Shown piece by piece: positions 1 through 64,000 of a stretch of DNA of 64,000 bases (its first letter is position 1; each line of letters begins with the position of its first letter). The notes under the pieces were generated by a model. It was not told where the DNA came from and made no database searches. It saw only the letters and a list, made by a program, of their open reading frames with translations. Made by a program: the position numbers and the translations under genes. The stretch spans positions 10,162,991 through 10,226,990 of the forward strand of contig OY744616.1 of NCBI GenBank assembly GCA_963556255.1, in the 5' to 3' direction. This DNA comes from Allolobophora icterica. Lineage: Eukaryota > Annelida > Clitellata > Crassiclitellata > Lumbricidae.

Positions 1-256
1 GCAGTCACGTACTGCTTTCTGCCCTCAAATGATCTGCCACAGATAATTAAATAATATCACCTTCTACATAGCTACAGCTAAAATAGGTTTTATTCCTCAC
101 TGGTTCATTCCTGATCCTCTAATCCTCGCCCTCTCTTGAAATCCATAAACCAACTGCTTTATCGGAACTCCTCCAGCCACTTCCAAACTATCTTCCATCT
201 TCTTCAATAGCTGAACCGTTCTGTTCTTCTTTTCGGGCAAAATTGCTACCCACCAT
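1..256. other. Flank left of the first transposon, no gene seen
   Basis: I see no coding exon, RNA gene or repeat that I can name here. The reading frame on the - strand that crosses into the transposon end has no recognisable protein content. Confidence 0.5.
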
Positions 257-295
257 TTCGATGGCTGGAAGCACAAAGGTGCTAAGCGCACTTTT
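257..295 (+). repeat. Left terminal inverted repeat (39 bp)
   Basis: It is identical to the reverse complement of 4734-4772 over all 39 positions. The core reads TGGCTGGAAGCACAAAGG and continues into GTGCTAAGCGCAC. The match stops at 296. Confidence 0.93.
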
Positions 296-349
296 TTGGG
301 TTTTTCAAAAAAGTAGTGCATAATATGCCTGGAAGAAATATACATCGGA

Positions 350-481
350 GCACAAAGGTACTAACGTTTACGATGTTAATTTGGATCACTTGGCACCAAA
401 AACACAATTGGGCTAAGTCTCATTGGCTGAAATCCATAGAGCGCAAATAGCTCAAGCGCACTTAATACCTATGTGCACCCT
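350..481. repeat. Subterminal repeats of the left transposon end
   Basis: GCACAAAGGTACTAACG at 350-366 copies the TIR core with one change. A degenerate copy lies at about 425-466 (TTGGCTGAAA, then GCGCAAATAGCTCAAGCGCA). A short inverted piece, TACCTATGTGC, follows. Such clustered copies are typical transposase-binding sites; that role is inferred. Confidence 0.6.
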
Positions 482-617
482 CTTTTTTTAACGCCTTGTC
501 TTTGTTGTTGACTTCCACGCCATTCGCCATTACTGTTTATCGTCGTCCCCGTTACAAAAATAATAAAAGTTACATTAAAAATAACAGAAACAATATCTCG
601 AAATCTTTATTATTGAA

Positions 618-3600
618 ATGCATAAACGAGTGCATCGTTTCAGTTCTGCAAAAGCGCTTCAGATGATCATGGACCTTAATGATTCAATCGAGGAATCCAG
701 TGATGATGGTAAGCTTATGAATAGGAACCTTAGAAAATGCTGTAAAATTATGGAAAATAAATGTTGATGTTTGGGAAATTAAGTGATTTAAAGCTCGAAA
801 TCGGCTTATGTGGTAAAATTGTAAAAATTATGCGGTATTATGCAGTAAGGTTTGGGCTGCATCGAAAGGCAATGTCATGGACGTCTCATCGGTATTATTA
901 AGCAACTACAGGTGGGATCGTGACCACCAGAACACACCTGCAGACGCATAGACCGGTATTGCTTGCCATAGTGAATATTAAAACCAGCGATGCATCCCTC
1001 CGTGTTTCTTTACATTGTTTAACTTGGGTATGCATTTTGTCTGTCTTAGGAACATCTACTGAACATCTGGCAACTGATTTGCCTGCAACTATGCTTCCTC
1101 TGGACCTCGAGATTTCTTCTCCGCTTAATCGTACACCTGCTATGACAGTTGAAGGGCTTGATCCTACACTTCCTCTAGTCTTGGAGCCTTTTTGCAGAGA
1201 GGTTTCTGCAGTAGAAGTGCTCGACCATTCACACCCGCTGGCAACTGATTTGCCTGCAACTATGCTTCCTCTGGACCTCGAGGTTTCTTCTCCGCTTAAT
1301 CGTACACCTGCTATGACAGTTGAAGGGCTTGATCCTACACTTCCTCTAGTCTTGGAGCCTTTTTGCAGAGAGGTTTCTGCAGTAGAAGTGCTCGACCATT
1401 CACACCCGCTGGCAACTGATTTGCCTGCAACTATGCTTCCTCTGGACCTCGAGGTTTCTTCTCCGCTTAATCGTACACCTGCTATGACAGTTGAAGGGCT
1501 TGATCCTACACTTCCTCTAGTCTTGGAGCCTTTTTGCAGAGAGGTTTCTGCAGTAGAAGTGCTCGACCATTCACACCTGCTGACGTCCGAGCCTTTCAAC
1601 CTTCATGTTGCAAGTATGGCCACTCCGATGGAAAGAACTCGTACCCGTAAAGTTATCATCATTACTCGCCTAAGGTAGTTCTTTGTACTATCATTTCAAA
1701 TGTGGTTTCAATTATTATTTTAAGATGTAGGTCTAATAGTCATTGTCTCTATGGAGTAGTCATTTTCTTGTATTTCTGCCATTATAATTGATGAATTAAT
1801 TTACTTAAACTACTCTTATGATGAAAATACAAAAGTTAAATTAAACTTCTGTTAAACTTGTCATCAGTTACTACAGTGTACTATGATTATGAATGTTTCA
1901 TTGTAATCGCAATGCATTCTGTGAATGTGAACTTCAATAAAGGAAGATTATTAAATTATTAAAAATGAGTGTTTAATTGGCATTTATTTTTATTTTACAT
2001 GTCATGTAGGCCATCAATCTTGCAACCTTTGCAAGTTCCAGTCGGGGTTATTTCTTCTCAACAGATGTCACCTGATTCAGTGCTTCCAACAACAGTTGAT
2101 GTAGTTAATCCTCCACATCCAACAGAAGTTACAGTGTCTACTCGTTCAACTTCTCTCTCTAACGAAGAGCCTGGTCCCTCAGGAAGTCTTCCTCTCAGCG
2201 ACGATGCATCTACACCTTGCCTACCACCATCAGATATGGAGGAGCGTTCACGAAAGCGTAAACGAAATACACAAGGTTGGAAACGAAATGTTAGGCAGCT
2301 ATCTCGAGCTAATGGAAAGGAGTATGTTTCGAGGAAAGGGAAACTAGTGGCGGGAAAAAAACCATGTGGGGGTTGCGAAGAAGGATGTCGTTTTAAGTGT
2401 GGGGTCATGATTTCGGAAGATAAGCAAGTGCAATTATGCAACGAGTATTACTCGTTGCAAGACATTCAGTGCAAGTCTCAGTTCCTCTGCAGCGCAGTCA
2501 CTGAAGTTGCTGTCCGCAGGCGTAGCATAGATGCTGCAACTGGAGAGGCTGTAAGCACAAAGCGCAAGAAAAGTCGAGAGTATTATTTGATGTCCGATGA
2601 TGATCGAATGCGTGTCTGTAGAAACTTCTTTTGCAGTACTCTTGCTATTTCAATCAAGATTGTTAACAGGGCTTTAAAAGGTAAATCAGATACTGGTTTA
2701 TTTGTTGGAAAAGATGGTCGGAAAGGAAAGGTTCCTGCAAATAAAACTTCAGATGAGAATATCCAGAAGATCGTCGATCACATAAACAGCTTTCCGCAGG
2801 TTGAATCGCATTACACTCGCAAAGACTCACGTAAACGGTATTTGGCACCTGATCTTAATATTCAACAGCTTTACCGTTTGTACAGTGAGGATTACTGTCA
2901 AAGGCTTGGAGTAGCACCTGTTAAGCAAGAAATCTATCGAAGAGTCTTCAATACCCAATTTAATCTTGGCTTCTTTATTCCTAAGAAAGATCAGTGCTCC
3001 ACTTGTAATAGCTACAGAAATGCTGTGGATACAGAGAAGACGAACTTGCATGATGCATGGGAAGCACATAAAAGGCGAGAAAAAGAGTCTATGGAGGAGA
3101 AGAGTCGCGATAAAGTAAAAGCTTGCAGTGACCAATCGTATCGAGCCATAACATTTGATCTTGAAGCAGTTCTCTCTACTCCACATGCAGGTGATTCACA
3201 AATATATTATAGAAGGAAGCTTGCTGTGTACAACTTTACGATACTGGAATCGGCATCCCAACAAGGATTCAATTACATATGGGACGAGACAGAAGGTGGT
3301 AGGGGAGCAAATGATATAGGGTCCGCCCTTCTGGATTACTTGCGAAAACTTCCAGCAACCGTCACGCACGTCACATCATTCTCAGATACTTGCGGTGGAC
3401 AAAATCGCAACCAGTTTATCTGTGCAGTCATGTTGTACGCCATTAGAACATTGCCTTCTCTACAAACTGTTGATCTAAAGTATATGGAGAGTGGCCACTC
3501 GTATTTAGATGTAGATCTAATGCACTCCCTGATTGAGCGAGCTACAAAGCATCTCAAAATTTATACAACTCGTGATTGGGAAGTGGCGATAGCCGGTGCA

Positions 3601-4041
3601 CGAAAGAAAGCTCCTCCATTTATCGTTCAGCGAATGATGCACACAGACTTCAGTGACTTGAAGATGCTGGCTTCTACTCTTCTACTAAATCGCAGCAAGA
3701 ATATGGAGGGGGATACGGTGAATTGGCTACGTGTTAAGTGGCTGCGCTTCAGTAAACTTCACCCATTTGTCATTGAGTACAAATACCAGATTAGTGATGA
3801 GAATTTCCTTCGCCTCAACATATCCAGCAAACGCGGCAGGCCAAACACACTGATAGGGGACCTTACACCAGCCTATCTCTCTCGAATCCCAATCTCGACG
3901 GCCAAAAAAGCTGACCTCCTTGCGCTACTGAAGAGCAGAGTAATTCCGGCAGAGCATGCGGTTTTCTACAATGACTTGCCTTCAAATGCTAGAGCTCGAG
4001 ACTGTCTTCCGGAGCCCTGTGCTGACGAGGAAGAAGACTGA
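618..4041 (+). CDS. Transposon-encoded DUF7869-type protein, likely transposase
   Basis: Three exons, 618-708, 1050-1674 and 2010-4041, join in phase with GT-AG introns into 915 codons. I chose the ATG at 618 because its exon ends at a good donor (GATG/GTAAGC) whose phase fits exon 2. Exon 1 is short and acidic (ends DSIEESSDD). Exon 2 holds three 57-residue repeats and a basic end. Exon 3 holds a basic region, a cysteine cluster (CGGCEEGCRFKC), the stretch SREYYLM...VCRNFFCSTLAIS, then the core. In the core, FDLE (D about residue 622), SDTCGGQNRN (D about 698) and YLDVDLMHSLIE (D739, D741, E748) look like the three acidic positions of an RNase H-like fold. The family is one I remember as DUF7869, common in invertebrate genomes and of unstated function. 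The role as transposase is inferred from the surrounding TIRs. Confidence 0.82.
1067..1579 (+). repeat. Three tandem 171-bp units inside exon 2
   Basis: Units start at 1067, 1238 and 1409, exactly 171 bp (57 codons) apart, and are nearly identical. The first differs at GAGATTTC versus GAGGTTTC, and the last ends CACCTGCTG instead of CACCCGCTG. The array keeps the reading frame of the transposon gene, and the opposite strand is also free of stops across it. Each unit encodes a Pro/Leu-rich, acidic, probably disordered segment beginning LATDLPATML. Confidence 0.95.
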
Positions 4042-4733
4042 ATTCAAACTTAATGTTATTCTTTTCTTATCTGAAACTAATGGCTTGAATGCAGAGCATT
4101 ATTTTATAATTACTGTTGCATTTTATTGTTTTACTTCTTCAACGTGTGAAATGTGGATAAATTATGGAGGAAGATGCATTTTGGTGCTTCTTGATTTTCA
4201 TTATAATATTTTTTTCTTAAATCTTTATTGGATGTTAATTATAATGATAAGTATGACAGCTATGATTATCACATTAATTTGAAGGAAAACTCGGCGTAAG
4301 AGTCGCTCATACTTGAATTAAATTATTTTTGGTTATTTTCCTGATATTATTAGGAGTTTTTTTGCTTAAAAGACATTTTAAAATTAAATAATATAATCAT
4401 GTGGTGCTTAATAAATTAACAAATGCTTAAAGGCTAGTTAGAACAGTATTTATTAAGGGTCTTCTAAAACAATTGTCAAAACAGTTGACATGAATTAGTA
4501 TTTCAGGTGTCCCAGCATCAGCGCACAAAAGTCCTAAGTGCATATATTTCCTTACAGTAATTTTACAAAGTCATTTTTTTTTTACAAACAGAATTATTTG
4601 TGCAAAAATAAAAATACTTGTAACACTGCAATAAGCTCTTCTTTTGGAAAAGTCATTGCAAATCGAATTATTTTGAATAATGAATTTTAGCAACACATAA
4701 CAAAACTTCAACTTCAGTTTTCTTAGAATTAAG
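4042..4733. other. 3' non-coding part of the transposon
   Basis: AT-rich sequence between the stop codon and the right TIR. It holds one subterminal motif copy at about 4520-4542 (GCGCACAAAAGTCCTAAGTGCA). I see no further gene. Confidence 0.6.
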
Positions 4734-4772
4734 AAAAGTGCGCTTAGCACCTTTGTGCTTCCAGCCATCGAA
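4734..4772 (-). repeat. Right terminal inverted repeat (39 bp)
   Basis: Exact reverse complement of 257-295. It ends CTTCCAGCCA followed by TCGA. Confidence 0.93.
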
Positions 4773-4994
4773 TTTTCTAAGTTCCAGAGGACCTAACGGA
4801 TTTCGACTATAGTTCTAATGGCTTCAGTGACTTAGCTTAGGGCCTAATTATTCTTTTGCAATGCGATTTTCCTTAGACGTGACCATCGTCTGGTGCTCTG
4901 TGCGCTAGAAAAGTTATATTAGATAACAGACCTTTTACCTATCGATGAATCACGTCATAAATTATAGCCTATGCCTTAACCCTGGAACTACCAC

Positions 4995-5013
4995 TGGGGT
5001 CAAAATGACCCCA
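4995..5013. repeat. Subterminal palindrome of the piggyBac relic, copy 1
   Basis: TGGGGTCAAAATGACCCCA, arms TGGGGTCA and TGACCCCA. The other copies are at 5173-5191 and 5938-5956. They are probably transposase-binding repeats; this is inferred from position. Confidence 0.7.
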
Positions 5014-5267
5014 AACGATTTTGCATTCCTCACCACTCCTACATAACATGCAGAATTTGCATGATTTTTCTTGACTTTGTAGATTTAGCCATTCTTTGTA
5101 AAATTCTTTAATATTAGTTCCACTTTCTCTCACCAGGTGGCGTTCATAACGATTTGAAACACTGACTACCACTGGGGTCATTTTGACCCCAAAAGTAAGA
5201 TGCTCAATAGGAATCAAATATGCCTTAAATTTTCCTAAATGAAACTGTTAGAAATATACAAATATCA

Positions 5268-5735
5268 ATGCTGTTTGAGAAAAATTATCCAAGTTATGAA
5301 AGCAATAGAATTTATGCTATATATACCAAGCGCGGAGTGGATATGGCGGACCAAATGCTTCGCATGTACAAGGCGCTGGCCGAAGGCAATATTTTACAAC
5401 ATGGTGCACATAAGCGCCCTCAATGCATCCATTGTATGGATTACACTCAATCCAGACTTGCAATTCAAGTCAAAGCACCATCTCCTTTCCTAGTTCTAGG
5501 AGAAATATTCATTTCTCCTAGAACTAGGAAAGGAGATGGTCGGTCAGACCGCTGATGTGGAACACACATTGAAAGAATCCGTCGATACAGTCGATGTGAC
5601 AGCTCTGTCAGCTGAGAAAAGGGCTCCCTGCTTTATCTGTCCACAAGAGAGACAAGAAATCGAGCTCCACCTGCTTGGCATGTGGGCGTATTGCATGCTA
5701 AGATCACCTAAAGAACATCTGCGTCCACTGCAAAC
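5268..5735 (+). pseudogene. piggyBac transposase C-terminal remnant
   Basis: The frame from 5268 reads YTKRGVDMADQMLRMY, which matches the piggyBac motif around the late catalytic acidic residue (GGVDxxDQ). After the hairpin at 5477-5540, the frame near 5620 gives CFICP. A shifted frame then gives TCLACGRIAC, a stop, and DHLKNICVHC, which looks like the C-terminal cysteine-rich zinc finger. At least one frameshift and one stop break it. The N-terminal and central catalytic parts are missing. Confidence 0.7.
5477..5540. repeat. Perfect 30-bp inverted repeat with 4-nt loop
   Basis: The arms are 5477-5506 and 5511-5540, separated by ATTC. The left arm begins ACCATCTCCTTTCCTAGTTC and the right arm is its exact reverse complement. 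It sits inside the transposase remnant and would form a very stable hairpin. Confidence 0.95.
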
Positions 5736-7039
5736 CTTGACACTTATACTGTTACAATTTCTGTTAGTCTCTATGCGACTTGACATCATGCATAGCGTTG
5801 CAGTAATCCAGGACATGGAGTAAAAGGACCGTGCAGTTTTAGACACAATTATGAAGACAAGCTATTCCTACTTGAAAGGAAACAATTTGTCTTTGCATTT
5901 AACTTTTGTTGGTGCATTAAAGCGATATAAATGGTGTTGGGGTCATTTTGACCCCACTGGTAGTCAGTGGGTGCAAAATATTTTGGTAGTTCTAGGGTTA
6001 AATTGTCCAATTTGTTATTAAATGAAACAATTCTTACGTTTACTTTCGACTCTCTGTCTGTTATGATGTTCTGCTCGAGGTTTTAATTCGTGTCGATAAG
6101 TCAGTTATTCATCGATTTGCGATGCTTGGAGTCATCAATTCTGACGTTGAACTTCGATCGAATATTTCGATGATTTCTGGTGGAAATGACAATTTCTTGG
6201 CAGCAGTCGAGTCGTTGTCGATTTGCGTCTTCAAAGAAGCACCTAAATGCATTTATTTAGTTGAATTTCGACGTTTTTCTGACATTTTTGGTGATTTCTG
6301 TTCGAAATCTCTCGTCTCGTCTGATCTCTTCCAAATCGAGTTATAATGACGTTGCCAAGACACTGAACAGTGTATCTAACTATGACGTCATCTGCAATAA
6401 TGGCAAAATAATAATAATAATAATCTTTATTAATAATAATCTTTATTATTTCAGACTGACAGACGCAGTAAGATTACATAGAATTTGCCCGGTCTTAGGA
6501 TATTACGGGCCCTGTGCAGAGTAGGCCTATACTTTACGGGCCCCTCATGACACAATTAAGTCAAATTGTTTTTCATTGCTAATCGTTTTATTTGAGTAGA
6601 TTGTTAACAAGTAGCCTACAAGTAGAATTTAACTAGGCCTACATACAAATGCAACTGTAACAGAATAATAGAATGCTACTTCTTTACAGAAAGAGAACTT
6701 TCCTTGCTCTCTGTGCTGCAAACTGTTTTACAGCGCTAATATTTTTTGAGACAAACTAAACTGTTGGTCCCATTTGACTTTTATTTTATTGACAAAAGAG
6801 AAGATATATTATAATCGAAACCATTATGTTATAATTAGGGTGTTCTTGTTCATGTTAATTTATGTTACCGTACATTTTCTGCCGCCCCCCTCCTTAGTTG
6901 CGGGCCCTTAAGGCCGGCACTGGTAACAGCGATGGAGAGAAGGGTGGTGACTTTTGCAAGAAGACAGATGAAGGACTTGAGGAGGACGAGAAGGACGAGG
7001 AAGAGGAGGAGCCTATTTTCATTCGCGAGATGGCGCGTT

Positions 7040-7200
7040 GTTAAAAATGAGATGTAGGACGTGATGGGAGCCTTGCATGGCTGCCGTATACAGTTAAATT
7101 CGACTCCTGTAATAACTTGTGATCATCCGTTCATACTGATTTGTAATCATACTGCGTTATTGTCAGTTTGAAAATATTAAACGAATATTATTATTATTAT
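7040..7200 (+). repeat. SINE 3' fragment (family C)
   Basis: It matches the right half of the element at 24052-24330: shared blocks include TACAGTTAAATT, GTCAGTTTGAA and TTAAACGAATATTATTATTA. The tRNA-like head is missing here. Confidence 0.65.
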
Positions 7201-7288
7201 TTATAAACTGTAACCTACTATTTTGATCTGCTTTTAATCGTTATTCATAACGGAACTTCCGGTCGTATGACTTTTGTAGGTTTGCATC

Positions 7289-7310
7289 ATCGATATCTAT
7301 AGATATCGAT
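7289..7310. repeat. Perfect 22-bp palindrome
   Basis: ATCGATATCTA followed by TAGATATCGAT, with TTTGCATC on both sides as a short direct repeat. It lies about 500 bp before the BLZF1 start codon. Confidence 0.85.
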
Positions 7311-7579
7311 GGTTTGCATCGGTCATATTTACTTTTAAACAATATTTGGCTAAATTTACCGAAAGTTAAATTCAGATCAGTTACTTGTATATTATTGTCG
7401 GCAAAATATAAGGCTTTGTTTAACAGATTTAGTATTTAGAAAGACGTATCTATGAAATTTATAAGACTAAGTTCCCAAAGTGTATCGTTTGAACACGTAT
7501 CCCTATACGACTGACGGATGTATTTTCTTCAACGTCGACTGAACCATTGACTATCTTTCATTTCAATAACCCTCACTGA

Positions 7580-7811
7580 ATTGCATGGCAAGGCTGCTTT
7601 AGCAAAGGGTATGTACAGTATGTTTTCTTGAATGATATAACAAGATATAACATGTCAATACAAACAATTAGCAGTTTCGTGACCCAAAAGGTTTAAGTTT
7701 AAAATGCATATAACAAATTTTAATGTTTTTTTTAATATTTCCGTTTTTTTCTCTAGGCAGCTATAGACAGTAGCTAGCTGAAAGACTATTTTCTCATATA
7801 TTCTCTTGAAA
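7580..7811 (+). promoter_or_regulatory. Likely BLZF1 5' leader with an untranslated-region intron
   Basis: A donor-like AAAGG/GTATGT lies at 7609 and a long pyrimidine tract ending TTTTTTTCTCTAG lies at 7756, 55 nt before the ATG. This suggests a short intron (about 7609-7756) in the 5' UTR. The transcription start itself is not identified. Confidence 0.4.
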
Positions 7812-10800
7812 ATGGATCATAAGACGAGTCTTGGAAGCAGCGGGGGGCAAGAACAGAAGCAGCGGAAGGTAGTCGTATATCCAACACAACGATCCATGTC
7901 AGTGGTTAAGAGAGATTCTCCAAGGTTCATTCCTCATGAACCTGTCAGAGGCGCTGTTTCTCCTTTGGATAAGAATTTAGGGCTGCGCGGCGGCAGGGTT
8001 TCTGAAACTTCTACAAAGCGGAGCATGGAACATCATGAAAAGTTGACGACAAAGAATGAACGGACAAATGTAGCTCTTACGAATCGACTGAACAGAGTAC
8101 AACCGTTGTCATCTTCTGAACAGGTTGGTAGGAGATATTGATTGCTCAATGCCTTTTGTAATAAATTGTTTATATGGCGTTCTTTTGGGATTAAGATAAT
8201 TATCTGTTATGCATTTCCTAATTATGATGCGGAGATATAACTTCTGTTAGTGTTAGTTTTTCATTTTATTTATTTGTTTACTCTATTTATTTATTGTATT
8301 TGTTTGTGCACAAGGTCAGTAAGTCTGAATCTGAGACACACGCTCTCGAACATTCTGTCCTGGGTTGTTAGTCTCGGTACAGGGAGTCCACATGGAAGGC
8401 TCAAACCAACAATCGTTGTATTATAACCTAGTGTGTTACTGATTAGACCATGATGACTCACAAATTAGCCTTTAATATGTAAAAGCCTTCACTCAGTTTA
8501 GTCCACTTCATATGCCTTATTGATCGCCAAAAACAGAAGCTAATTTTACAATTTGTTATATAAATGTAACAAGTGTCAATGTTGGTGTTAACTGTGTGTT
8601 ATCACTAATCTTGTTATTTGTTTTATGAAGAATTCTGTTTGGTGATTTTGCCTGTAAGCATGATTCTCCAATATATTTCTTTATGTTTGGGTTAAAGTAG
8701 TTTGAACAGATGTAACACCAGTATTCTCCAAGTGGAGTTTTGATGTCGAAAAAGTTACGAGACGAAATGACTGTTTTCTCAGTTGCAGTGTGCGTTTTCA
8801 TGTGTTCCAGGTGTCCAATTCTTCCAACATATATCCGCAGCCTATTCCGCCATACCACGACAACTATCATGCTCATCTGCAAGGAAGTTCCGTGGTCTCC
8901 GTCTCCAGTTCTAATAGTCTCTCAGTGTCATCCTCCTTACATCTTCCTATGCAAGAGGATCACTCAGCTCTTCTTGGTGCTCGGTTGATGCTCGGCAGTT
9001 CCTCTGAGAGCAGAAACAATGGCAGCAGAGACACAGGTACATGTTTGAAAGAGGAAGATCAGCGGGATACTTCAAATGAAGTCACTCAGTTGAAGGAGGA
9101 ACTTGAGGTTCTGATGAAGGTAGGTGCTTATTCGAGCACTGCAGAAATTTCTATTATTGCTGTTGTTGATGTATGCTTATTATTAAATTATTATTAATTA
9201 ATTTATTTATTTTAATATGTTTATGTTTATTTTTTATTATCACTTACCCAAGGTTAGACTGACCCATCAGCTGTAATTGGGAGTATGTGGTAATATTATT
9301 ATTTGTTTTGTGTACATGATGTATTTTGTTCAGTGATGTAAAATGATTCCTAACAATCTTAAAAAACTATCCAGATAATAAAACTATCTTCTGATGAGGC
9401 CCATAGGTATCTGTTTGCCTCTTTATTATTATTATTATTGTATTATTATTATAATTATTAATGCTATTAAGGCAGGAGAAAAGGATAAGGTAAGGGCACT
9501 GAACAGTGCCTTCCAAAAACAAGCACGGAAAGATAAAGAAATACATCTAAACGAATTATGCAGAGAAATGGAAGACGAGGGAAGGAAGGGACGAACCAAG
9601 GAAATGTTCTCAAAAGTAAAGACAATCACGGGAAAATTTGCACCTAGAATGGGCTCAATGAAGGCAGGAGATGGAAATGTAATCTGCGATGAAGAAGGGA
9701 TAAAGCATAGATGGAGAGAATACACGGAGGAGTTGTATAGGGAAGACAAACGAGTCAAAAAAGAACAAATTGACGTAACAGAGTATGAAAAGGAACCGGA
9801 GGTCATGGAAGCGGAGGTAGAATGGGCAATCAGACAACTCAAGGACAATAAGGCACCCGGTCAAGATGGGATACCTATAGAACTGATAAAAGCAGGGGAT
9901 GATGCGATGATAAAAACAATAACAAAATTGTGCAATCAAATATGGGCAACTGGAGAATGGCCGGAGGACTGGAAGAAGTCGATCTTTATACCTATATTCA
10001 AGAAAGGAGATGCGAGGGAGTGTGAAAATTATAGGACGATAGCAATGATATCACACACTAGTAAAATATTACTGAAAATAATTCACAAAAGAATGGAAGG
10101 CACAATTGAAAGAGAACTTCCGGTGAACCAGGCAGGGTTTAGGAAATCTCGTGGAACTCGAGACCATATAGCCAACATGAGGTGGATAATGGAGAGACAA
10201 AGGGAGTATGGACAGGAGGTTCACATCTGTTTCATTGACTATAGCAAGGCATTCGACTGCATTAACCATGATTTAATGTGGAAAACCCTGCTTGAAATGG
10301 GAATTCCGAAACACCTGATAATGTTACTAAAGGGTTTATATGAAGACCAGATAGCGGTGATAAGAACAGAATACGGAGACACTGACAATTTCAGAATCAA
10401 GAAAGGAGTGAGGCAGGGATGCATCTTGTCTCCATTCCTGTTTAATCTATATGCTGAAAGAATAATGAGAAAGGCTGAACTGGAGGGGGCAATTGAGGGA
10501 GTAAAAATTGCTGGAAAGACACTGAATAACCTTAGATACGCGGATGACACAACATTAATGGCAAAAAGAAAAGAGGATCTGGCAGAACTGATAAGAAGGG
10601 TCAGGAGAGAAAGTGAAAAAGCTGGTTTATACTTCAACATAAAGAAGACAAAGGTCATGACAACAGCAGATTGGGATAGTTTTGAGATAGACGGAGAGGA
10701 AATAGAGGTGGTAGAAAGCTTCACATTCCTAGGATCACTGGTTGGAAAGGAGGGAAAGTGTGATCCAGAAATAAAACGAAGGATTGCTATAGGGAAAGCT

Positions 10801-13491
10801 GCAATGACCGGACTGGAAAAGATATGGAAAGACAAACATGTGAGCATAGAAACCAAAAAAAGGCTCGTGAGAGCACTAATCTTTCCTACGGTACTGTACG
10901 GTTGCGAGACGTGGACAATGACAAAGAACATGGAAAATAAGGTTAACGCTTGTGAAATGTGGATATGGAGGAAGATGCTGAGAATATCTTGGACTGAGAA
11001 AAGAACGAACGAATCAATACGAGAGGAGATTGGAGTTGAGAATGAAGAGTCGTTAAAACAAACTGCGACAAGAATGAAGCTAAGGTTCTTTGGACATGTT
11101 ATGCGATCTGATGGTCTGGAGAAGGAAATGATGCTGGCGTGCGGTGAGGGGAGGAGAAGACTGGGTCGCCCAAGGAGGAGATGGATGGATGAGATACAAG
11201 ATGTAACTGGCATGAATTTGGCGGAATTGAGAGACTTGTCATCGAATAGGAGACGGTGGAGTGTGTTCACCAGGACGATCGCTAGAGCTCCACGAGCTGA
11301 CAGCACAAGGTGACAAGGTGATTAGTATTATTACTATTTAACAGTTGTTGAGAAAGTATATGGTGTCTGAAACTCGCCCTTAAAATTTAAGTTGTTCACT
11401 GCATTGAAATTTTCATAAAATCTGTTTGTTTGATTTAGGTTAATTCTGATCTAAAGAAGTTGTTGGTCGCTTCTATTGGAGATGATCTGCACTACAAAGT
11501 CGATGCTCTTGTTAGGTGATTATTGAACTTAGTTGCCATGGAGATAACCAGGATTTATTTAGTCAACTCTTATTGTATTCGAATTTAAGCTGTTACGATG
11601 ATGTAATAATAATAATAATAATGATAATCCGGACATAGTTTTGATTGCCTGAGGGATCATAAATACCTGTGGTATAGATAATTTGGAAACTTCTCTATCT
11701 CTGGAGTTGGGCTGGGAGTGCCTCTGAGTAGGTATCTTAGAGGGGCGCTATATAAAGCCTGTGAATGATTAAATAGGATAATTTAACGATGAGTGTGTAC
11801 TAAAATGTATCGATAACTAATTCCTGTCATCATTAAAGGGTTAACAAGAAAGGCCTTGAGCTGTGGTTTGAATGTCTTCAGAGGTGATGCATTCTTCACA
11901 TGGTTGGGAAAACTGTTCCACACGGTTGGTCCAGATAATGAGAAGAAAACCTAATAGAAGACTGCGGGACTTGTAGTTGATTTTTTTTATGTGGATGTAG
12001 AAGAAGAGGAGCTGTCCCTTAGCTTGTCCTGAGCGAAGTTTTGGTGACAGACATAGGCTTGTTAGTAAAAATGTTTGTGGTTCTATTCCTCTGTTACTCT
12101 AACTGTTTAATAGATTTTTAATTTGTTTAGTTTCTCTTTTCGGTAGGACCAAGGTACAGTTGGCTAACGAAATCGGAGACTATACTCGTAAACTGGTTGA
12201 GGATTATGAAGACCTCGATAAACTGTCGATTCAAGCCGATCTTTGGCACTCAAAGTACCAAGCAAGCAGGTAACCAATGTTCAGAATAGATGTAGCACTC
12301 GCTCGGAATAACTGTTATAAGAAGCCATTTATTGGAATTATAGCTAATAACTACACCTTATGAAGCGTCTTATTATCATGTGAATTCTGATATAACATTG
12401 TCAGATATATGGATCTAAAATTTACCTAAATTTAGTTTAGCTTCAGAATATAATATAACCTCATTCTGTTTTAACAGGTAACATATAACAACTGGTTTTT
12501 AAAGCTTTGTTATGGGCTTCCATGCTGAGTAGTTTGTCCTGCGAGGGGCACTATATAAATTGACAATTGCAGTACAGACACTCTTCATGAGACAACCCCC
12601 TTCCCCCACATAATGTCGTGGTGAACTTGAATCCCAACTGTAGGGTTATAAGGAGATTCCAGCAGTAAGCCTACCATTGTGTTGTTTACCAGAAAAGTGA
12701 CTATGATCGACACTGGGTAATACACTGTGAGGATACTCTGACATTGGAAGGGTTATGAAAATATTAGTTGACTCACATGAACAAGTAGGAGTTGATTTAT
12801 TGACTCACTTGAGCCAGTAAGTTACTAACTGGCTGATATGACCCTGTGGGAGTTGATGCACTGACTCACGTGAGCCTCTGGGAATTAATGTAGTGACTCG
12901 CATGAGCCCTTGAGAATTGACCTAATGACTCGCGTGAGACACTGGAATTGACTTAATGACTCGCATGAGCCATTTTAAATTGACTTAATGATTCGCAGAA
13001 GACACTGGGAATTGACTTAATGGCTCGCACTCGTGAGTCACTGTTAATTGACGTAATGACTTGCATTAGCCACTGGGAATTAAGTTGGAGACTTTCAGAT
13101 GCTGTTGTTTGGTGTAATAGCATGTCCCTCTTGTTGATTCTTGATAGGGTTTTAGTGGAGCAGCTGACCTCTGAATGCGACCGACTGAACGGTTCGTTAG
13201 GTCAGGCACAGATGGCACTACAGTACAACATCCAGGAGAGACTTGAGCTTCAGGAGTTGCTCGTGCTTGCACGCAGGTACGTTTAACCGAGTTAGAACCA
13301 GGTAGTAATACGTGTATTCTGTTCTTCAAACATATTTGCATGTATGTGTGTATGTTTGTATGTGGTTAGGCATGCATGCAAATGTGTATATATGTATGTA
13401 TGTACAGTATCTGGTTATTCATAGATACATGTGTGTGTATATATATATATTATATATACACATGTATATATATATAATATATATATTATAC

Positions 13492-13563
<72 letters not shown>

Positions 13564-15204
13564 GGTCTTGTGAATAATTTGTTCTAATATGTGTGTAGGC
13601 ATGTGCATCTGGTTATTAACATGTTCTCTTAACCTCCAAAAGGTAGGTTTGAGAGTCACATGCTGGGTGGCAAGGGTGACACAGTGGCTAATTAAGTTAG
13701 TGGCTGAAAGGGTGGACTGGTGGCAGATAGGGTGGAATGGTGAGGATAAATTTCTGTTTCAGTTTTGTATTTGAAAATTTGAATATTTCTCAGAAATCTT
13801 CTAGCGCTGGTTGGTTCACAAAAGCCGTCTTTGGTCGAGCGCTTTCGCACAAAACGTCCTCACGCTTTGGACCTGGCGATCGATATCAAGCGCTTGACTG
13901 ACACCGCGTGTCGTCTACTTGCTGGAGGCATTCCTCCGTGCGAACCCGACGAAGATGCGAGATCGTCCTTCACACCTGCCGAGCTACTCACACATCAGGT
14001 AATGCAGGCTCTTTCCCTGTTCAGTGTTTCTGCTGTATGAATGTCAAGGAAAACATAATGTCATTCTGTTGGAAATCAGCATCAATTGCTTAGCAAAAAG
14101 CACTTTTGTTTGGTACTTAATAAGAACTTTAAAACCCCTAGAGGTTTACCTACAGGTTCATAAATACCATACATATGTATCATACTTACATAACATACTG
14201 ACATAACATACATACATACGATGCATGCTGTTGACCCAGGGAACAGAATCAACTACCAATCTTACTTTGAAGCTCAAATTCTGTGTCTTCCTTCAACAAA
14301 TGCCACAAAATGCACTATTTCTCACTAACTTTCAGGTAGTTGAATTTCTAACTGCTCTAATACATGGTGGTTGACTGGCCATCCTTGGATTCATATTACT
14401 GTGTGGCTTTGTGCATAATGACAAATGTTTATAATAATATTAATAATAATACATGCCATCTTTTCTTGGATATGACGCTCATGTGTGTGTGTGACCAGCA
14501 TGACAACTTGAATTTTAGTAGAGTGTGAATATTTGAAACATTTTACAAACTTGTGCTAACAATCTGAACTTTATGAGTGTAGACGGGTAAGGAAAGTTTT
14601 CATATTTAAAGTTACTGTTGATCTGCGAGGCAGCATTCAGCAGTCTTGAGAGAGTCTTAAAAGGCAAGCTCATACTAAGTGAATTGTGGGATGATGAATT
14701 GCTACTGAAATCTTAAAGCTTCTTCTGATGCGGTGCTTTAGAGAGGGTTAAAATTTGTGGGGGGCACAGGGGTAGCCGAACAGATAGAACGCTCAGCATG
14801 TAATGTGGAGTGTACAGGTTCGAGCCTTCACTCGGACACTCCTTGTGTTAGGAATTTGAGCAGGTCCTTCACGGTGTTCACACACAACTGCTTGGCACCA
14901 TCATATGGTTTGTGTGCACTTCTGAACTTTGGAAGGAGGGCAATATCAAATGCTGTTGTATTGTATTAAAATGTGCTATATATATGTGTTCGGAATCATA
15001 GATTCATAAAATGTTTTGACTTCTCAGGTTCTATCTTCTGTCAAAGCCGGTGGTGGGTGTGGCAGTGCAAATGGCGTACCAGGGTCAACGTTCGTTGCTC
15101 GTCACCCTCCCATCCTTCTTCCGCGGTTTCACCCTGGCGCAAGGTACGAGGGATTCACCTTCAGCTGCTGTGCCCACTGCAAGGGTGAAGTCTTTGTCCT
15201 ATGA
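7812..15204 (+). CDS. BLZF1: Golgin-45 (basic leucine zipper nuclear factor 1)
   Basis: Seven exons (7812-8123, 8811-9119, 11439-11515, 12147-12269, 13148-13276, 13794-13998, 15028-15204) join in phase into 443 codons; the human protein has about 400. Golgin-45 is a peripheral Golgi coiled-coil protein that binds GRASP55 and Rab2 and helps keep the medial Golgi stacked. The diagnostic pieces are DLKKLLVASIGDDLHYK in exon 3, the coiled coil of exons 3-5 (about residues 190-315), and the C-terminus RFHPGARYEGFTF...CCAHCKGEVFVL. The terminal cysteines and hydrophobic tail are the part that docks on the GRASP55 PDZ domains in vertebrates. The N-terminal 180 residues are Ser-rich and poorly conserved. 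The start is the ATG at 7812; the in-frame TTG just before it is not a start. Intron 2 carries an RTE retrotransposon and intron 4 a minisatellite. Confidence 0.93.
8285..8460 (-). repeat. tRNA-headed SINE, reverse orientation
   Basis: On the - strand TGGTCTAATCAGTAACACACTAG resembles a pol III A box region and GGTTTGAGCC a B box, about 45 bp apart. It lies in BLZF1 intron 1. It is degraded and cannot be a working tRNA. Confidence 0.5.
9463..11313 (+). CDS. RTE-clade reverse transcriptase, partial ORF2
   Basis: About 616 codons without a break. The finger and palm motifs are present in order: NKAPGQDGIPIELI, WKKSIFIPIFKKGD with NYRTIAMISHTSKI, QAGFRKSRGTRDHIANMRWI, FIDYSKAFDCINH, GVRQGCILSPFLFNLYAE, and the catalytic LRYADDTTLM. 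The C-terminal part has VLYGCETWTMTK and FFGHVMRSDGLEKEMML. This wording is close to the BovB group of the RTE clade. The apurinic endonuclease domain that should precede it is absent. The open frame continues upstream only through the translated (ATT)n tract, so no genuine start is visible. Confidence 0.85.
   Translation, partial: AIKAGEKDKVRALNSAFQKQARKDKEIHLNELCREMEDEGRKGRTKEMFSKVKTITGKFAPRMGSMKAGDGNVICDEEGIKHRWREYTEELYREDKRVKKEQIDVTEYEKEPEVMEAEVEWAIRQLKDNKAPGQDGIPIELIKAGDDAMIKTITKLCNQIWATGEWPEDWKKSIFIPIFKKGDARECENYRTIAMISHTSKILLKIIHKRMEGTIERELPVNQAGFRKSRGTRDHIANMRWIMERQREYGQEVHICFIDYSKAFDCINHDLMWKTLLEMGIPKHLIMLLKGLYEDQIAVIRTEYGDTDNFRIKKGVRQGCILSPFLFNLYAERIMRKAELEGAIEGVKIAGKTLNNLRYADDTTLMAKRKEDLAELIRRVRRESEKAGLYFNIKKTKVMTTADWDSFEIDGEEIEVVESFTFLGSLVGKEGKCDPEIKRRIAIGKAAMTGLEKIWKDKHVSIETKKRLVRALIFPTVLYGCETWTMTKNMENKVNACEMWIWRKMLRISWTEKRTNESIREEIGVENEESLKQTATRMKLRFFGHVMRSDGLEKEMMLACGEGRRRLGRPRRRWMDEIQDVTGMNLAELRDLSSNRRRWSVFTRTIARAPRADSTR
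9463..11340 (+). mobile_element. 5'-truncated RTE/BovB-like non-LTR retrotransposon
   Basis: The element begins right after an (ATT)n tract (about 9424-9462) and ends near another ATT-rich run at about 11322-11340. It lacks the endonuclease half but keeps an unbroken reverse transcriptase and C-terminal region. It sits in BLZF1 intron 2, sense to the gene. No clear target duplication was seen, because simple repeats mask both junctions. Confidence 0.8.
11690..11775 (+). repeat. LINE/SINE shared 3' tail
   Basis: GGAGTTGGGCTGGGAGTGCC followed by TCTGAGTAGG matches the LINE 3' end at 43698-43770 and, more loosely, the tails of the SINEs at 52018 and 53248. Confidence 0.6.
12750..13085 (+). repeat. 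Degenerate minisatellite in BLZF1 intron 4
   Basis: About nine imperfect units of roughly 35-40 bp built on TTGACTTAATGACTCGCATG followed by AGCCACTGGGAA. The array ends about 60 bp before exon 5. Confidence 0.75.
13435..13562. repeat. (TA)n microsatellite
   Basis: More than 50 bp of pure TA at the end of a longer TATA/CATG-rich run in BLZF1 intron 5. The frames across it are artefacts. Confidence 0.95.
14756..14975 (+). repeat. tRNA-headed SINE (family A)
   Basis: The head is GGGGCACAGGGGTAGCCGAA with ATAGAACGCTC (A box region), then ACAGGTTCGAGCC (B box). The body has GAGCAGGTCCTTCAC and the tail GGAAGGAGGGCAATATCAAA with TGTTGTATTGT. The same body and tail are at 38850-39035. It lies in BLZF1 intron 6. 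Confidence 0.75.
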
Positions 15205-16291
15205 TGGACCCCTGCCGAAAATGTACTTCTCGTTGACGTAGGGCATTGGTTTTTGGATATTGCTGACTCATTCTGTGGAATTCTCAAGACAAGAGATCCT
15301 TTGCCTTTGTTTTGTCAGGGATTCATTGTGCTTTACGACTGTCGTCAGGTCGATAGCACTTTGAAGAGCTTTTTTGGAAGTAGTACGGAGTATTCAGTTA
15401 TGGTTAAGGCTACGAATGTATTTTCCTGTCTCAATCCTCCAACGTGTATTGGTATCAGCTTTAAAAACATTAATCTCTATTTTTTCCGGTTATTGTAAAG
15501 GGCTTTTCATTAGGGTTCATATTTTTGTATACATACTTACTTTCAACATACTCGTACATTATGTGAGGAACATTTGGAGCGCTGAGCACCTCTGATGAGT
15601 TTTGCTTGAAGTTGCTCTACATAAATTAGCGATTATGATTACTTGTCTAGTGGACTGTCATGTAATAGGATAATTCTGATGTAAGATATTATTGTTTCTG
15701 GTATTGTACATGCCTATGGTATTTGAGAGAAGTAATTAGTTGTACAGCTGAGGACCTGTGTAATTAGCCATTAAGAGTTGATTAATCGTTCTTAATCATT
15801 CAACTGATTCAGTAGGACTTGATTAACGATTTGGTTCATTAGCCAGCAGGAGTTGATTACATGACCTGTAGCTACAGATGTTGAATTACAACTGCAGTGT
15901 AAGTAAGTTTCTTCGTAAGTTTAACACGTGTGTAACAGGTAAAATTATTTTTAATTAAATTAGCTGTGGTAGAGGTAGGCCTATTCTGTTCTGGTAGTAG
16001 GCATAGCTGAACAAAGGTCTGAATTGTATTGCATGGCTATTTAAAAGTTGAAGAGTGAATACTGACTGAGCTAAGTTTTGAAACATGGCATTGCATGGCG
16101 ATTAAAGTAGTGAAGACTATGACCTATTGACCTTGTACATGTAATTTGTATTATGAATATTATGTTGAAATATACAGTGTAAATGTGTCTATGCACAAAA
16201 GTAACAAAAGAAATTTGTCAACGTATGATCCACACTTCTGTTGATACTGTTTATAAAACATTAACTGTACTACTAGGGCACCGGAACTTTC
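15205..16291. other. BLZF1 3' flank
   Basis: This probably contains the BLZF1 3' UTR. I saw no clear AATAAA signal in it. Diverged copies of a GAGTTGATTA-type unit lie at about 15770-15865. No other gene is seen. Confidence 0.45.
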
Positions 16292-16299
16292 TTCTAAAG

Positions 16300-16621
16300 C
16301 AGCGGTTTTCAACTTTTTGAGACTCGAGGACCACTTATAAATTTTGTGTCTTGGTTGCGGACCACCGCTAGAAATTGTGTTGAAAACAAATTATTACAAA
16401 AGAAATTTTTTTGCCATGAATCCGTGTATTATTAGTTTCATGCTGCCAGCTAGCCGATTGTAGCGATTGAAATAAAAAAAAATTTAAAAGAAATTTCTGT
16501 TTGCACGCTTAGATGTGCTTTTGAACAGCACATCTTTTAAATTGTAAGCCTTGCTCGCGGACCACCAGGCAGATTGCCGCGGACCACGAATGGTCCGCGG
16601 ACCACAGGTTGAGCACCGCTG
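16300..16621. mobile_element. hAT-type MITE, 322 bp
   Basis: The ends are inverted (CAGCGGTTTTCAAC on the left, CAGCGGTGCTCAACC read from the right), with repeated GGACCAC inside, the usual look of hAT ends. The 8-bp target duplication TTCTAAAG is exact at 16292-16299 and 16622-16629. There is no coding capacity. Confidence 0.9.
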
Positions 16622-16654
16622 TTCTAAAGCACATCTTCCAGATATACGGTACTG

Positions 16655-16720
16655 ACCTAATTGGTTTGGTTTTGGTGCACACCATCGGTTGATGCCTTGT
16701 GCAATTCGAATAAAATGTGG
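16655..16720 (+). repeat. Interspersed repeat tail (GGTTTTGGTG type), copy 1
   Basis: TTGGTTTTGGTG, then CCATCGGTTGATGCCTTGTG and AATAAAAT, is shared with 42390-42470 and 51425-51510. It is probably the 3' end of one LINE or SINE family. Confidence 0.55.
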
Positions 16721-16746
16721 TCGTAACTTGAACAGCATTCCCTTTA

Positions 16747-16780
16747 CTATGTATGTATGTATGTATGTATGTATGTATCT
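16747..16780. repeat. (GTAT)n microsatellite
   Basis: Seven to eight GTAT units in the intergenic interval. Confidence 0.9.
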
Positions 16781-16859
16781 AGATACTTAATATAGCGCCT
16801 TTTAAGTACCTCACAGAAGTGCTGCACACGTGATTATCTGACTGATCTAAAGAAGTGCA

Positions 16860-19410
16860 TTTTAAGACTGCCGTTGTGTGACTCCGTACACTATAAGAAA
16901 TGATCATTCTGTCCATGCAGCATATGCAGAAACCCACACAATTACTTTGACTTGGACTGAGTGCGGGACATACAATGTAGATCCAAAGTCTAATTGCATT
17001 CAGCTTTAAACCATGTTTTCATGCCATCTTGTCATTATAAAGGCAGCTTCACAAGTATGGACCAGTGAATATCTGCATCAAGTGAATGTATGTATCTGGT
17101 TCCACTGAATCTATCTACAAAGTATCTGCTTCCAGTATATGCATTGTATCTGCTTCAAGTGAATGGATCTGAACATTTATATACGTAGTTTAGGTAACTG
17201 GTTATGCGCACTGTAGCGTGCTAAAGACGTTATACGTTACAACCTGAAATGCAGTGAAATCATTAGCAAGTTTTTGTACAAAAATATGGAATTTATTTGT
17301 TAAATATGCAGTTGTCTCGTATAAAACGTCAACACACGAAACAGCAGACAATGACAAGTAAACATCAATCACATGTTTAGATACAATAAACCATTTTCGT
17401 AAGAAAACAAATGGCAGCTTCCATGACATATACGCATAAGAATTCAGATCTTAGAAAGTCGTCTGCATTTACAGCCTGTTAGATTTCTCTGCTATGGTAC
17501 GATTTTCTGATGAAGTGGCTTGCAACGTTTAACCATAGAGTAATAGTTATGCTGAGTAGGTTACAGTCACTGAAACATCTGCTGAAAAGGGTAACAGGAG
17601 ATAATTACAGATAATACATGTCCGTTTCAAAGTGCAAATTTAACAGAACAAAAACAGCCAGGGAATCTTTATGTTAAGATTACCTGTCTCAAAATTTTAA
17701 AGTCTTAACAGTTTAACGATGAGTGTACTAAAAGTGACTGGGAAACCAATGCAGCTTGTTGTTAAAGTGTTAATTGTAGTGGTTGTGATAACTGAAGAGT
17801 AAAGCCAAAGGGTTTGTCATAAAGGAACAAAAAATTGTGGGGGCCCCTCCCTCCTTGTGTTTGCATTCGACATTGCCCTCCCCATCGCCCTGCGAACGTC
17901 TGTAACTGCAGCGAAGGCCTAGGTGAGGCTACCTGTTGATCGTATATGGTTAACTGTTCTACTGGGTGAGGGACTTCAATACTGCTTGCCTTACAGCAGA
18001 GGGATTCTAATGAGATCCACTGATTCAGAATATCTGCCTTCTGACTGAAGTTGGTGTTTAAGGCACAGGCAGTACTGAGTTAACTATGTACCAAGCTTAG
18101 TGGTGGAAGTCTGCATTGGACATAACTTCTTCCCTCTTGTCCGCATTTGGTGGCCCTGCAATCCCTCGATGCAGATCTCTTTAATGAAAGACCCCTTTTG
18201 GCTGAAGTTTAGACGTGACAGCAGAGAACCTTTACATAAAGATTACGTCTCTCAAAAAGATAATGTCGTAATTGTAATGGTTGAGGTAAGTGAGGAGGGT
18301 AAAAGGCTTTGTGTAGGGCCAGGGCCTGTCTTCATTTAACAAGCATCTTTATGTATATAGCAATTTGGAAATTTTCGATATCAACATTGAACCCATTTTC
18401 TTCAATGATAAAGTTATTCATAATTGGCAGATCTGGATGAAATTTTATTTGATTCGTTCAAGTTTTATGTTATCTGTTTTAATTTTATTATTTTGTTTTC
18501 TTAAAGGATTACTTTGCATGCATTTTCAGCGGCAGATTTAGCTGAAATTAAGTTTTATTGGGAGTCTCTTTTAATTTAATTTTAATAATGTTCATAATTT
18601 ATTTTCTTGTTTTCTTCCTGGATAAAGTTACAGTATTAAGGCTATAGAAACTTTATCTTAGATAGAGTCCTTTTATGCTAGAGCCTGTTGACATGATAGT
18701 CATTAATACTGTCCCCATTTGATGTACTTGGTTGCTGTGTGACTAGTTTTTCATCATTAATAAATAAATAAACAAATATGTGTATATATATATATAGATA
18801 TGTATATTACAAATTGGCAGATTTAGTTGAAACTGAAGTTTTATGGTGGTGTTTTTTGTGGTACATGTATGAAAATTTGAAGGCTTCTTGCTGGGGTGGA
18901 TACAATGATTCCTTAATTTTGTAATACTGGTTAATAATGCTGGTAACCTGAGCTGTAGTTAGTGGTTATTGGTTAAGCTCGAAAGCCGTTGGCTGACCTA
19001 TTGTTGTAGTGTAGGCCTAGTTGAATCTGAATCCCAATGGGTGATTTGTATTTTAATTTAGGTTCATCTACATGCAAGTTCCTCTTCTGAGATAGACACA
19101 AAAGAAGGTTGTAAGAAATTTAGCAGCTGGACTTGGTACCATTTGGTTCTTGAGATCGCTCATACTCCAATTAAACGATATATTCTACCTTCATCATCTT
19201 CTTATTTTTAAATCAATTTTGGGTTAACTGAATAACTGACTTGACATGCTTCACGAAAACATTCCTTATATCATGCTTATCTTTTATGTACAAAATCAGC
19301 ATGACCTAATGTGACGCATTTTCACTTGAAACCTACGGTTTGAGCAGTTGGGAAGTTTGTACTTCGTTAAATGATTAAGGCTTACATTATATTAGTGAAT
19401 TATACATAAC
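16860..19410. other. Intergenic, repeat debris only
   Basis: No conserved exon is recognised on either strand. An interspersed repeat (TTTAACGATGAGTGTACTAA, then AAGTGACTGGGAAACCAA) is at 17712-17748, with relatives near 11793, 24355 (reverse) and 60212. The rest shows nothing I can name. Confidence 0.45.
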
Positions 19411-19411
19411 T

Positions 19412-19615
19412 TTCTTGGGCATGGTAGCTGAATGGTTAGAACGCTCCAATCGTAACGTGGAGAGTACGGGTTCTGATGTCGCCCAAGGGTATTACTGTAT
19501 AGGGAACTTGAGCAAGTCCTAAATGCACAATTGCTTAGTGCTATCAATGCTCTGTTGTTTGGTCATGTATGCACTTCGGAACACTAGAGCATTATCAAGT
19601 AGTTTTACTTGTATT
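19412..19615 (+). repeat. tRNA-headed SINE (family A)
   Basis: The A box region is GGTAGCTGAATGGTTAGAAC and the B box region GGGTTCTGATGTC. The body has TTGAGCAAGTCC and TGCTTAG. It is related to the copies at 14756, 38850, 40500 and 48000. Confidence 0.7.
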
Positions 19616-20774
19616 TACTGGACAAGTTACTCGGTAGCACTCCCAACATGGGTGTTTACGTATATACACCTGTACGTAACAATTGAGCGCAAAACCTTTA
19701 GGCCACGTACAATTCAGCGACACCACATAAAGAGTAAGATGGGCCTAGTTATGTCTGTTAAAATTGACTGTGTGTACAGTAAGCTGGTTACTGCGACTTG
19801 GCTCTTATCTGGCACTGCAGAAATCTCAAGATTATGATTTGAGCAGTTCCTAAGTTATTCCTAAATTTTCTTGCATGTCATTTTTTAACCAGCTGCTAGT
19901 CTGGCATCGGTTAAATTAAATCTGCTATTTCTTTCTAAAACTCTTGTGAGTAAAATTACAGCAGATAAATTATGCTTGCACTGTTCAGATCTCTCGTTTT
20001 TGGCATCTGTAGTTCTACATATAATCACCTATTGTTCATAGCACCACATTATTTTCAGCAAGATTTTATAAGTGTTTCTAAACTATTTCTTATTATCATA
20101 CAAACCACAGCATTGTTTGTTAACACTGTTAACGGTTTATGTTAATTTGGACCTTGGCACATCGCAGTATGCTTGCAAAATTTTTGTGAATCATCTAGTA
20201 CTCTAGAAATATAAATCGCAGGTAAGCAAGAACTGCTAGGTCATCATTTCTCTTACCGTATACATGTACACTGGACTGTCTTTACGAATGTCACTGCCAT
20301 GGGCCACATCACATACCTCATGAGAATGCTAGGTTCTAAACCCATGCAAGTTAGAGCGATTTGTGTCACTGATGGCAAAGGCATCTGTGTATACTATGGG
20401 ATTTGGTTGGGTCATCATTGCTTGACAAATGCGTATTGCTTGCTGGAATGAATATAGACTGGTGTGGTCTGTCTCGCTCAGCAGTGCTTATTTATATTGC
20501 TTTCTGGGTTCAATTTAACCTGCCTATAATTATTTAGATGTACATGTATATACTGTACCGATACCCCACAGAAGCTATTTCATATTCTGGCAACCACGAA
20601 AAAATGAACGTATGTTCGGATTTGTTTACGATAATCACAGTGGTGAATATTTGCAGAAGTTAAGAGCACCGCTTCATTTTTGCATTGGTTAGGCCCGCTC
20701 GATACTGCACTTTCCGTAACTACGGCGCTTACTAATAACACCTTAGAGAATTCAACACAACTGTTGCCACTGTA

Positions 20775-20935
20775 GAATTGGTAAAACTGCAGCTGCACTT
20801 GCTACATTTGCAACATCTGTTGCAAGTACAGCAACCGTTGCATCTGCAACAAAAGCAAGATCATCTGCAACAACTGTTACGTGTACAGCTGCTGCAGCAA
20901 CTGTTGCACATGATCAACAACCATTACATCTGCAA
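20775..20935. repeat. Low-complexity CAACTGTTGCA tract
   Basis: Many offset copies of CTGTTGCA, CATCTGCAAC and related 8-10-mers. The Gln/Leu-rich frame across it is a by-product of the repeat. Confidence 0.6.
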
Positions 20936-58824: not shown

Positions 58825-59297
58825 AACCCTAATCAGATGTTGTGAAGAAACATGCTCGAAATGTACATTTATTACTAGAAGTGTTTGTCAAATTAAAGCC
58901 AACAACCCGTCCTCGGCAATTTTCATGTCTTCAAATACTACAGCACAAAACTTTATGCAATTCTGAAAGGTACAGAGCTCGTTAATTAAGCAGTCATTGT
59001 GGCACGTTGAATTGAATTACACTGAACAGCCAAGGACTGCACTCCTCTGATGTGTTAGGTCCCGCTTGACCTTAAGAAATTTGCAGCGTTTTTGATCATG
59101 TTGGACAACTATGATCTTATACTACTGTCTTAGCACAGCGGACTCTTCTGACGTAACAAGGTCACAGATGGCAACAGAACTTCCCTTTCCCTTCAGTTCT
59201 TACAATCCCAAGTGCATGTATATCGAAAACAAACGTCTACTTGAAGCAGTTCTTGCCAGCACATGCTGCACAGTTCGATCGTCCTCGTGTCCTATCC
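58825..59297. other. RFC4 3' flank
   Basis: Probably the RFC4 3' UTR on the - strand. An AATAAA is present on the - strand at 58866-58871, about 430 nt past the stop codon. Confidence 0.4.
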
Positions 59298-63800: not shown

Positions 63801-64000
63801 AACACGTAGCGCGTTTACCGTCCTGCGTGGACCACACTTAGCCGTATAAAAAGTTTTGATGACTGAACAGCTGACTGATAACAACAAGGCTGAAGCATAC
63901 ATGCAGGGCTCAAAATATTAGTAATCTAACTTATCTAGTTACCTGAAATTTCGAGCTTTGTTTTTTTCCTCGTCATCATCCCCAACGATCTCCTGTGCTG
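60842..64000 (-). CDS. Second DUF7869-type protein, partial at the window end
   Basis: Three pieces join in phase: a partial exon 63943-64000 (reads EIVGDDDEEKNKARNF), exon 61690-63169 and last exon 60842-61354, together at least 680 codons. The middle exon has a Cys cluster (CSCQHNNGNPC), FEDIQRTVAFITNYSEDHAL, LPGRVPGFR, TDLCWTC, then three acidic motifs: YSFDFAQ (D at 62293-62295), CDNCSGQNKNRF (D at 62056-62058) and GHTKFAPDGCFGLL (D at 61930-61932). It ends IKKYHHFKFD. The last exon has PPGLPLQRQWYLYNKIREY and an Arg/Gly-rich basic tail. It belongs to the same broad family as the gene at 618 but is far diverged. A role as transposase is inferred only. A small hAT MITE sits in its first visible intron. 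Confidence 0.82.
63475..63642. mobile_element. hAT-type MITE, 168 bp
   Basis: The ends CAGTGGTGTGGCTA and, from the right, CAATGGCATAGCTA are inverted. The 8-bp target duplication ATAAGATC is exact at 63467-63474 and 63643-63650. The interior is rich in GGGCCC-like sequence. Confidence 0.88.

Follow-up and report, generated by a model that had tools for sequence, protein, structure and literature searches.

An intact, very recently amplified DNA transposon in Allolobophora icterica with a DUF7869 protein as its probable transposase

The element and its copies in the genome

The window analyzed here is a 64,000-nucleotide stretch of contig OY744616.1 from the lumbricid annelid Allolobophora icterica (assembly GCA_963556255.1; positions 10,162,991 to 10,226,990, forward strand). 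It contains an intact DNA transposon of 4,512 bp (259-4770), bounded by perfect 37-bp terminal inverted repeats (TIRs; CGATGG...CCATCG) and carrying a gene for a DUF7869 protein. An earlier note, made from the sequence alone, had described inverted ends of 39 bp. A perfect repeat of that length is indeed present (257-295/4734-4772), but the element's own TIR comprises only 37 bp, as judged from the junctions of 50 genome copies, from which the element edges were taken. As the duplicated 4-mers differ across these copies, the outer T and A can be assigned to the target, and CG/CG is part of the element; variants without the final T (ATAA, ATAG) or without the initial A (CCGT) set the edge at CG...CG.

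The three-exon gene of 915 codons proposed in the earlier note is present as a GT-AG frame, and its product is of the DUF7869 type (PF25273, E 2.6e-6, 27.6 bits versus a cut-off of 26). The protein was aligned to 62 relatives, which share 35-58% identity with it. Copies of the TIR core in the subterminal regions, likewise noted previously, were recovered by a motif scan of the identical copy L003: allowing up to 3 mismatches, GCACAAAGGTNCTAAG gave 8 matches versus 0.21 expected, a number reached in none of 200 shuffles. Three of the 8 matches are located in the exon 2 tandem repeat, which was unchanged in all 30 fetched copies.

The host assembly (1.118 Gb) was searched for further copies by DNA, TIR and protein. 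In the DNA search, 33 of 62 candidates were scored, and all 33 were full length and 100% identical; the 30 copies that were fetched were identical across 4,512 bp. The TIR search, which used 29 TIR bases with up to three mismatches and would therefore miss more decayed TIRs, detected 55 forward and 55 reverse sites (reversed control, 0). Among the sites listed (100 of 110), all were mismatch-free and formed 50 pairs of uniform spacing, except for two pairs, of which one was 1 bp shorter and the other 2 bp longer; no solo ends, internal deletions, or truncated or decayed copies were observed among them. A search with the 601-residue protein core identified 54 loci that were 100% identical within a 690-residue open frame, while the 55th gene copy, which is the copy 2 bp longer, has a broken frame.

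Gene and TIR counts thus agree at 55 each, and every one of the 50 listed TIR pairs matches a gene copy. TIR boundaries coincide with the unit in 30/30 full copies and at 40/40 junctions of 20 more. The gene is not confined to one locus, as the 55 copies are spread over 16 contigs. Many unlinked copies that share inverted ends at constant boundaries, together with 4-bp duplications, bear out the earlier identification of a DNA transposon.

No substitutions were present in 29 further copies across 4,512 bp. With neutral rates assumed to lie between 1e-9 and 8e-9 per site per year, the amplification burst is roughly no older than 3,000-23,000 years, an optimistic bound because the 30 fetched copies were the best scoring and two or more copies outside this set differ in length. 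A recent burst is nevertheless in line with the identical cores of 54 of the 55 copies. It is this pristine, very recent burst that makes the element unusual.

A perfect 4-bp target duplication was present in 47 of the 50 copies with junctions read (30 plus 20; 5 of the 55 fall outside this reading). The duplicated 4-mers were ATAT (32), ACAT (6), ATGT (2), AAAT (2) and ATAA, ATAG, ACGT, CCGT and ATTT (1 each). AWWT was strictly observed in 35 of 47 duplications and A..T in 44, while 12 departed from AWWT. The palindromic TCGA previously suggested as the target duplication is therefore wrong, as the 4-mers vary and are chiefly ATAT or ACAT. A TTAA element of the piggyBac type was rejected (0/50 sites read are TTAA), as was a TA element of the Tc1/mariner type (the duplication is 4 bp and includes AAAT, ACGT and CCGT).

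One copy (L024; G000:C4:11931908) resides in an IST1-like gene of the endosomal sorting complex required for transport, inside what is apparently its first coding exon. With one ACAT kept, the frame gives a gap-free alignment to an IST1 homolog in the PDB, covering residues 1-90 of the latter (E 5.5e-39), and matches Pfam Ist1 (E 1.5e-29); with both kept, the frame is broken. As a single ACAT restores the frame, this copy works as an empty site, and the host exon held ACAT once. No clean empty site was found among the flanks of the fetched copies, and a flank match of copy L020 was discarded as a microsatellite. Overall, the element has duplicated 4 bp at ATAT-like sites, has precise ends and has recently undergone mass amplification.

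Predicted fold and function of the DUF7869 protein

The predicted structure of the DUF7869 core is RNase H-like, with three carboxylates placed on strands 1 and 4 and on a following helix. The three aspartates (DDD) D308, D384 and D427 were kept in 101, 104 and 102 of 104 aligned rows, respectively. VIA-align of the predicted fold ranked retroviral integrases and mariner at the top. With regard to Ginger, which is defined by a retroviral-type integrase core in sequence, the predicted fold resembles integrases, and a Pfam scan of exon 3 listed DUF7869 alone and no named transposase family. Nothing came near a cut-off in an NCBIfam scan, and a sequence comparison with PDB chains gave a single marginal hit (E 0.17). 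Pfam gives DUF7869 no function, and its model covers only part of the RNase H-like core. The invariant cysteines C254 and C257, together with H278, form a probable zinc site. Judging from the predicted fold and the conserved triad, the protein is very probably an RNase H-like DDD transposase (D308/D384/D427), as the earlier note had supposed for the family.

Further DUF7869 families with 34-37% identity to the focal protein were detected in the same genome (17 rows; 73 of 428 candidates scored), and another DUF7869 branch has many more copies. Two copies each of four further families were fetched (8 loci). Both inverted ends were recognizable in 5 of the 8, and all 5 had a 4-bp A..T duplication (ACCT, AACT, AGTT, AAAT and ATAT). 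Unlike TIRs with the same kind of duplication across families are the behavior expected of a transposase. A second DUF7869 gene, from the other branch, is present in the window itself (61684-63246, minus strand; PF25273, E 4.2e-18). Copies of it with 99% identity occur at C7:31244746 and C2:53208516, and no obvious flanking TIR was seen in 59000-64000, where the window end is reached. In several DUF7869 relatives, P0052, P0060 and P0067 among them, an OTU peptidase domain (PF02338) was noted as a possible second module.

No scored genome match had an identity to the focal core between 37% and 100%. Among the 120 relatives listed, the nearest had 57% identity, with the exception of one near-identical protein: P0001 (source code lgn), listed as 100% identical, differs at 3 of 677 residues on direct comparison. 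This gap in identity and the near-identical protein fit an origin by horizontal transfer or by escape of a single copy. Searches of viral contigs and of bacterial or archaeal genomes, each species being represented by one, yielded 39 and 22 pattern matches, respectively, none of which was confirmed by tblastn.

Relation to Sola2 and other explanations

Taken together, we are highly confident that the element is a TIR DNA transposon, intact and apparently autonomous, that was amplified very recently and has the DUF7869 protein as its DDD transposase. Tc1/mariner (Mos1) and retroviral integrases resemble this protein in the predicted RNase H-like catalytic fold, at ~10% identity. The piggyBac transposase is also a DDD enzyme, although piggyBac differs from the present element in using TTAA. 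PMC5199201 attributes a 4-bp target duplication, as found here, to piggyBac and, in contrast to the 4 bp observed, TA duplications to mariner.

Judged by published feature descriptions, the element probably belongs to Sola, group Sola2. PMC10741241 describes Sola elements as having DDD transposases, 4-bp duplications, mostly 2-9 kb in length and TIRs of 11-1124 bp; here, a conserved DDD in the predicted fold, a 4-bp duplication, a length of 4,512 bp and a 37-bp TIR were found. For Sola2, PMC3627910 gives AT-rich AWWT duplications (ATAT, AAAT, ATTT) and an 888-residue transposase. The focal element is similar in its single transposase of ~900 residues, its short TIRs and its AT-rich duplications (AWWT in 35 of 47). 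It differs in its TIR length (37 bp versus the 12-21 bp stated for amoebozoan Sola2 elements), in having no recognized Fanzor gene and in sometimes having C as the second base of the duplication.

The earlier note left open whether the ends represent a new superfamily or an unrecognized member of a known one. The latter is favored, and a new superfamily is less likely, as the DDD and the AT-rich 4-bp duplication fit Sola2. It is therefore unlikely, though deserving consideration, that DUF7869 elements form a new TIR superfamily apart from Sola, marked by a DDD transposase and by A..T duplications of 4 bp. In its favor, no named transposase family was matched (Pfam, DUF7869 only; PDB, the hit at E 0.17), and the name DUF7869 was absent from the literature searched; however, the triad type, the length and composition of the duplication and the element size all agree with the published Sola and Sola2 descriptions. 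Slightly more doubtful is the fuller proposal that DUF7869 represents its own large animal transposon superfamily distinct from Sola, with the focal member derived from recent horizontal transfer and still jumping.

It is very improbable that DUF7869 is a passenger gene in a transposon mobilized in trans by another factor, as it is the sole gene recognized in the element, its family is found again in four or more other TIR families, whose ends are unlike but whose duplications are of the same kind, and its predicted fold is that of a transposase with conserved DDD. The unusually complete identity of the copies could in principle reflect an assembly artifact or segmental duplication, an explanation of negligible probability given that flanks are unlike between copies, target 4-mers vary and the copies reside on 16 contigs of the assembly.

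Several observations nevertheless weigh against the favored interpretation of the element as a Sola2-type transposon moved by its DUF7869 protein. The exon 3 Pfam match barely exceeds its cut-off. The N-terminal 239 residues are nearly unsupported, with only P0050 of 240 proteins aligning well there, so the protein start is less certain than the remainder. Foldseek matches to the core were weak (E 3.7e-4, TM 0.15), and the domain alone gave none at E <= 0.001, an RNA polymerase subunit being listed first and RNase H1 second. VIA-align favors integrases and mariner, whereas Sola is grouped with RNase H1, apart from both, in PMC3985635; this comparison does not settle the matter. The cut-and-paste mode named in the earlier note, as opposed to copy-out, is inferred from the predicted transposase fold. 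Among the other families, L073, L075 and L078 (3/8 copies) lack one recognizable end, and the edges of the remaining five were chosen with the duplication in view.

Furthermore, 3 of the 50 copies have no perfect abutting duplication. In the window copy, ATTT on the left (255-258) is answered on the right by an extra A (4771) and then ATTT (4772-4775), and copy L053 (C4:69488319) has one extra A ahead of its right 4-mer in the same way. The third, L002 (G000:C2:74158467), is an identical element without target duplication (ATCT/AAGA), possibly owing to recombination between copies or a deletion at the junction.

If the DUF7869 protein is the transposase, it would bind the TIR core and the subterminal repeats, bring both ends together and cut at CG/CG. 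The 3' ends would then be joined to ATAT-like target sites with a 4-bp stagger, and gap filling by host repair would create the duplication. Copy number could grow via donor-gap repair or through jumps during replication.

Window features and significance of the family

The features of the element are compiled in Table 1. Beside it, at window positions 4995-5555, an open reading frame (ORF) with a GVDMADQM motif occurs together with 19-bp TGGGGTCAAAATGACCCCA-type repeats in inverted orientation. We take this motif to be piggyBac-like; a Pfam scan of the ORF gave no match. By eye, a long ORF at 9382-11313 (plus strand) has the look of a reverse transcriptase of the long interspersed nuclear element type, and another at 27767-34858 (minus strand) that of a Gypsy-type polyprotein.

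Table 1. Positions of element, gene and protein features in the window
Feature	Position	Strand	Basis or remark
Left target-site 4-mer ATTT	255-258		TCGA of the earlier note begins at its final T
Left TIR, 37 bp, perfect (CGATGGCTGGAAGCACAAAGGTGCTAAGCGCACTTTT)	259-295	+	Edge from 50 copies
TIR core motif GCACAAAGGTGCTAAG	271-286	+	Read in identical copy L003
Subterminal TIR-core repeat, 1 mismatch	350-365	+	Motif scan
Subterminal TIR-core repeat, 2 mismatches	461-476	-	Motif scan
Exon 1 (predicted)	618-708	+	ORF, GT-AG sites
Exon 2 (predicted)	1050-1674	+	ORF, GT-AG sites
Three in-frame 171-bp tandem repeats (57 residues each), exon 2	1067-1582	+	Repeat reading
Exon 3, conserved DUF7869 transposase body (putative), stop 4039-4041	2010-4041	+	ORF, Pfam, relatives
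Invariant CxxC (C254, C257)	2995-3006	+	Alignment of relatives
Proposed catalytic Asp 1, D308 of 601-residue core, strand 1	3157-3159	+	Predicted fold, conservation
PF25273 (DUF7869) match	3382-3606	+	Residues 458-532 of 676, exon 3 protein
Proposed catalytic Asp 2, D384, in DTCGGQNRN, end of strand 4	3385-3387	+	Predicted fold, conservation
Proposed catalytic Asp 3, D427, start of helix after strand 5	3514-3516	+	Predicted fold, conservation
Subterminal TIR-core repeat, 1 mismatch	4523-4538	+	Motif scan
Right TIR, 37 bp, perfect	4734-4770	-	Inverted-repeat reading, edge from copies
TIR core motif, right end	4743-4758	-	Motif scan
Single extra A separating right end from target 4-mer	4771		Likewise in copy C4:69488319
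Right target-site 4-mer ATTT	4772-4775		Junction reading

In the limited literature searched, no functional work on a Sola transposase was found. With the same 601-codon open frame in 54 of 55 copies and no truncation among the listed TIR pairs, the element described here is a candidate active Sola-type element. Moreover, DUF7869, a Pfam domain of unknown function, gains a probable function as a transposase. Proteins with this domain are widespread among animals, numerous (two branches gave 339 and 747 hits, possibly overlapping, at E <= 0.001) and mostly unnamed or "uncharacterized." If the proposed function is true, many of them would be transposases rather than products of host genes.
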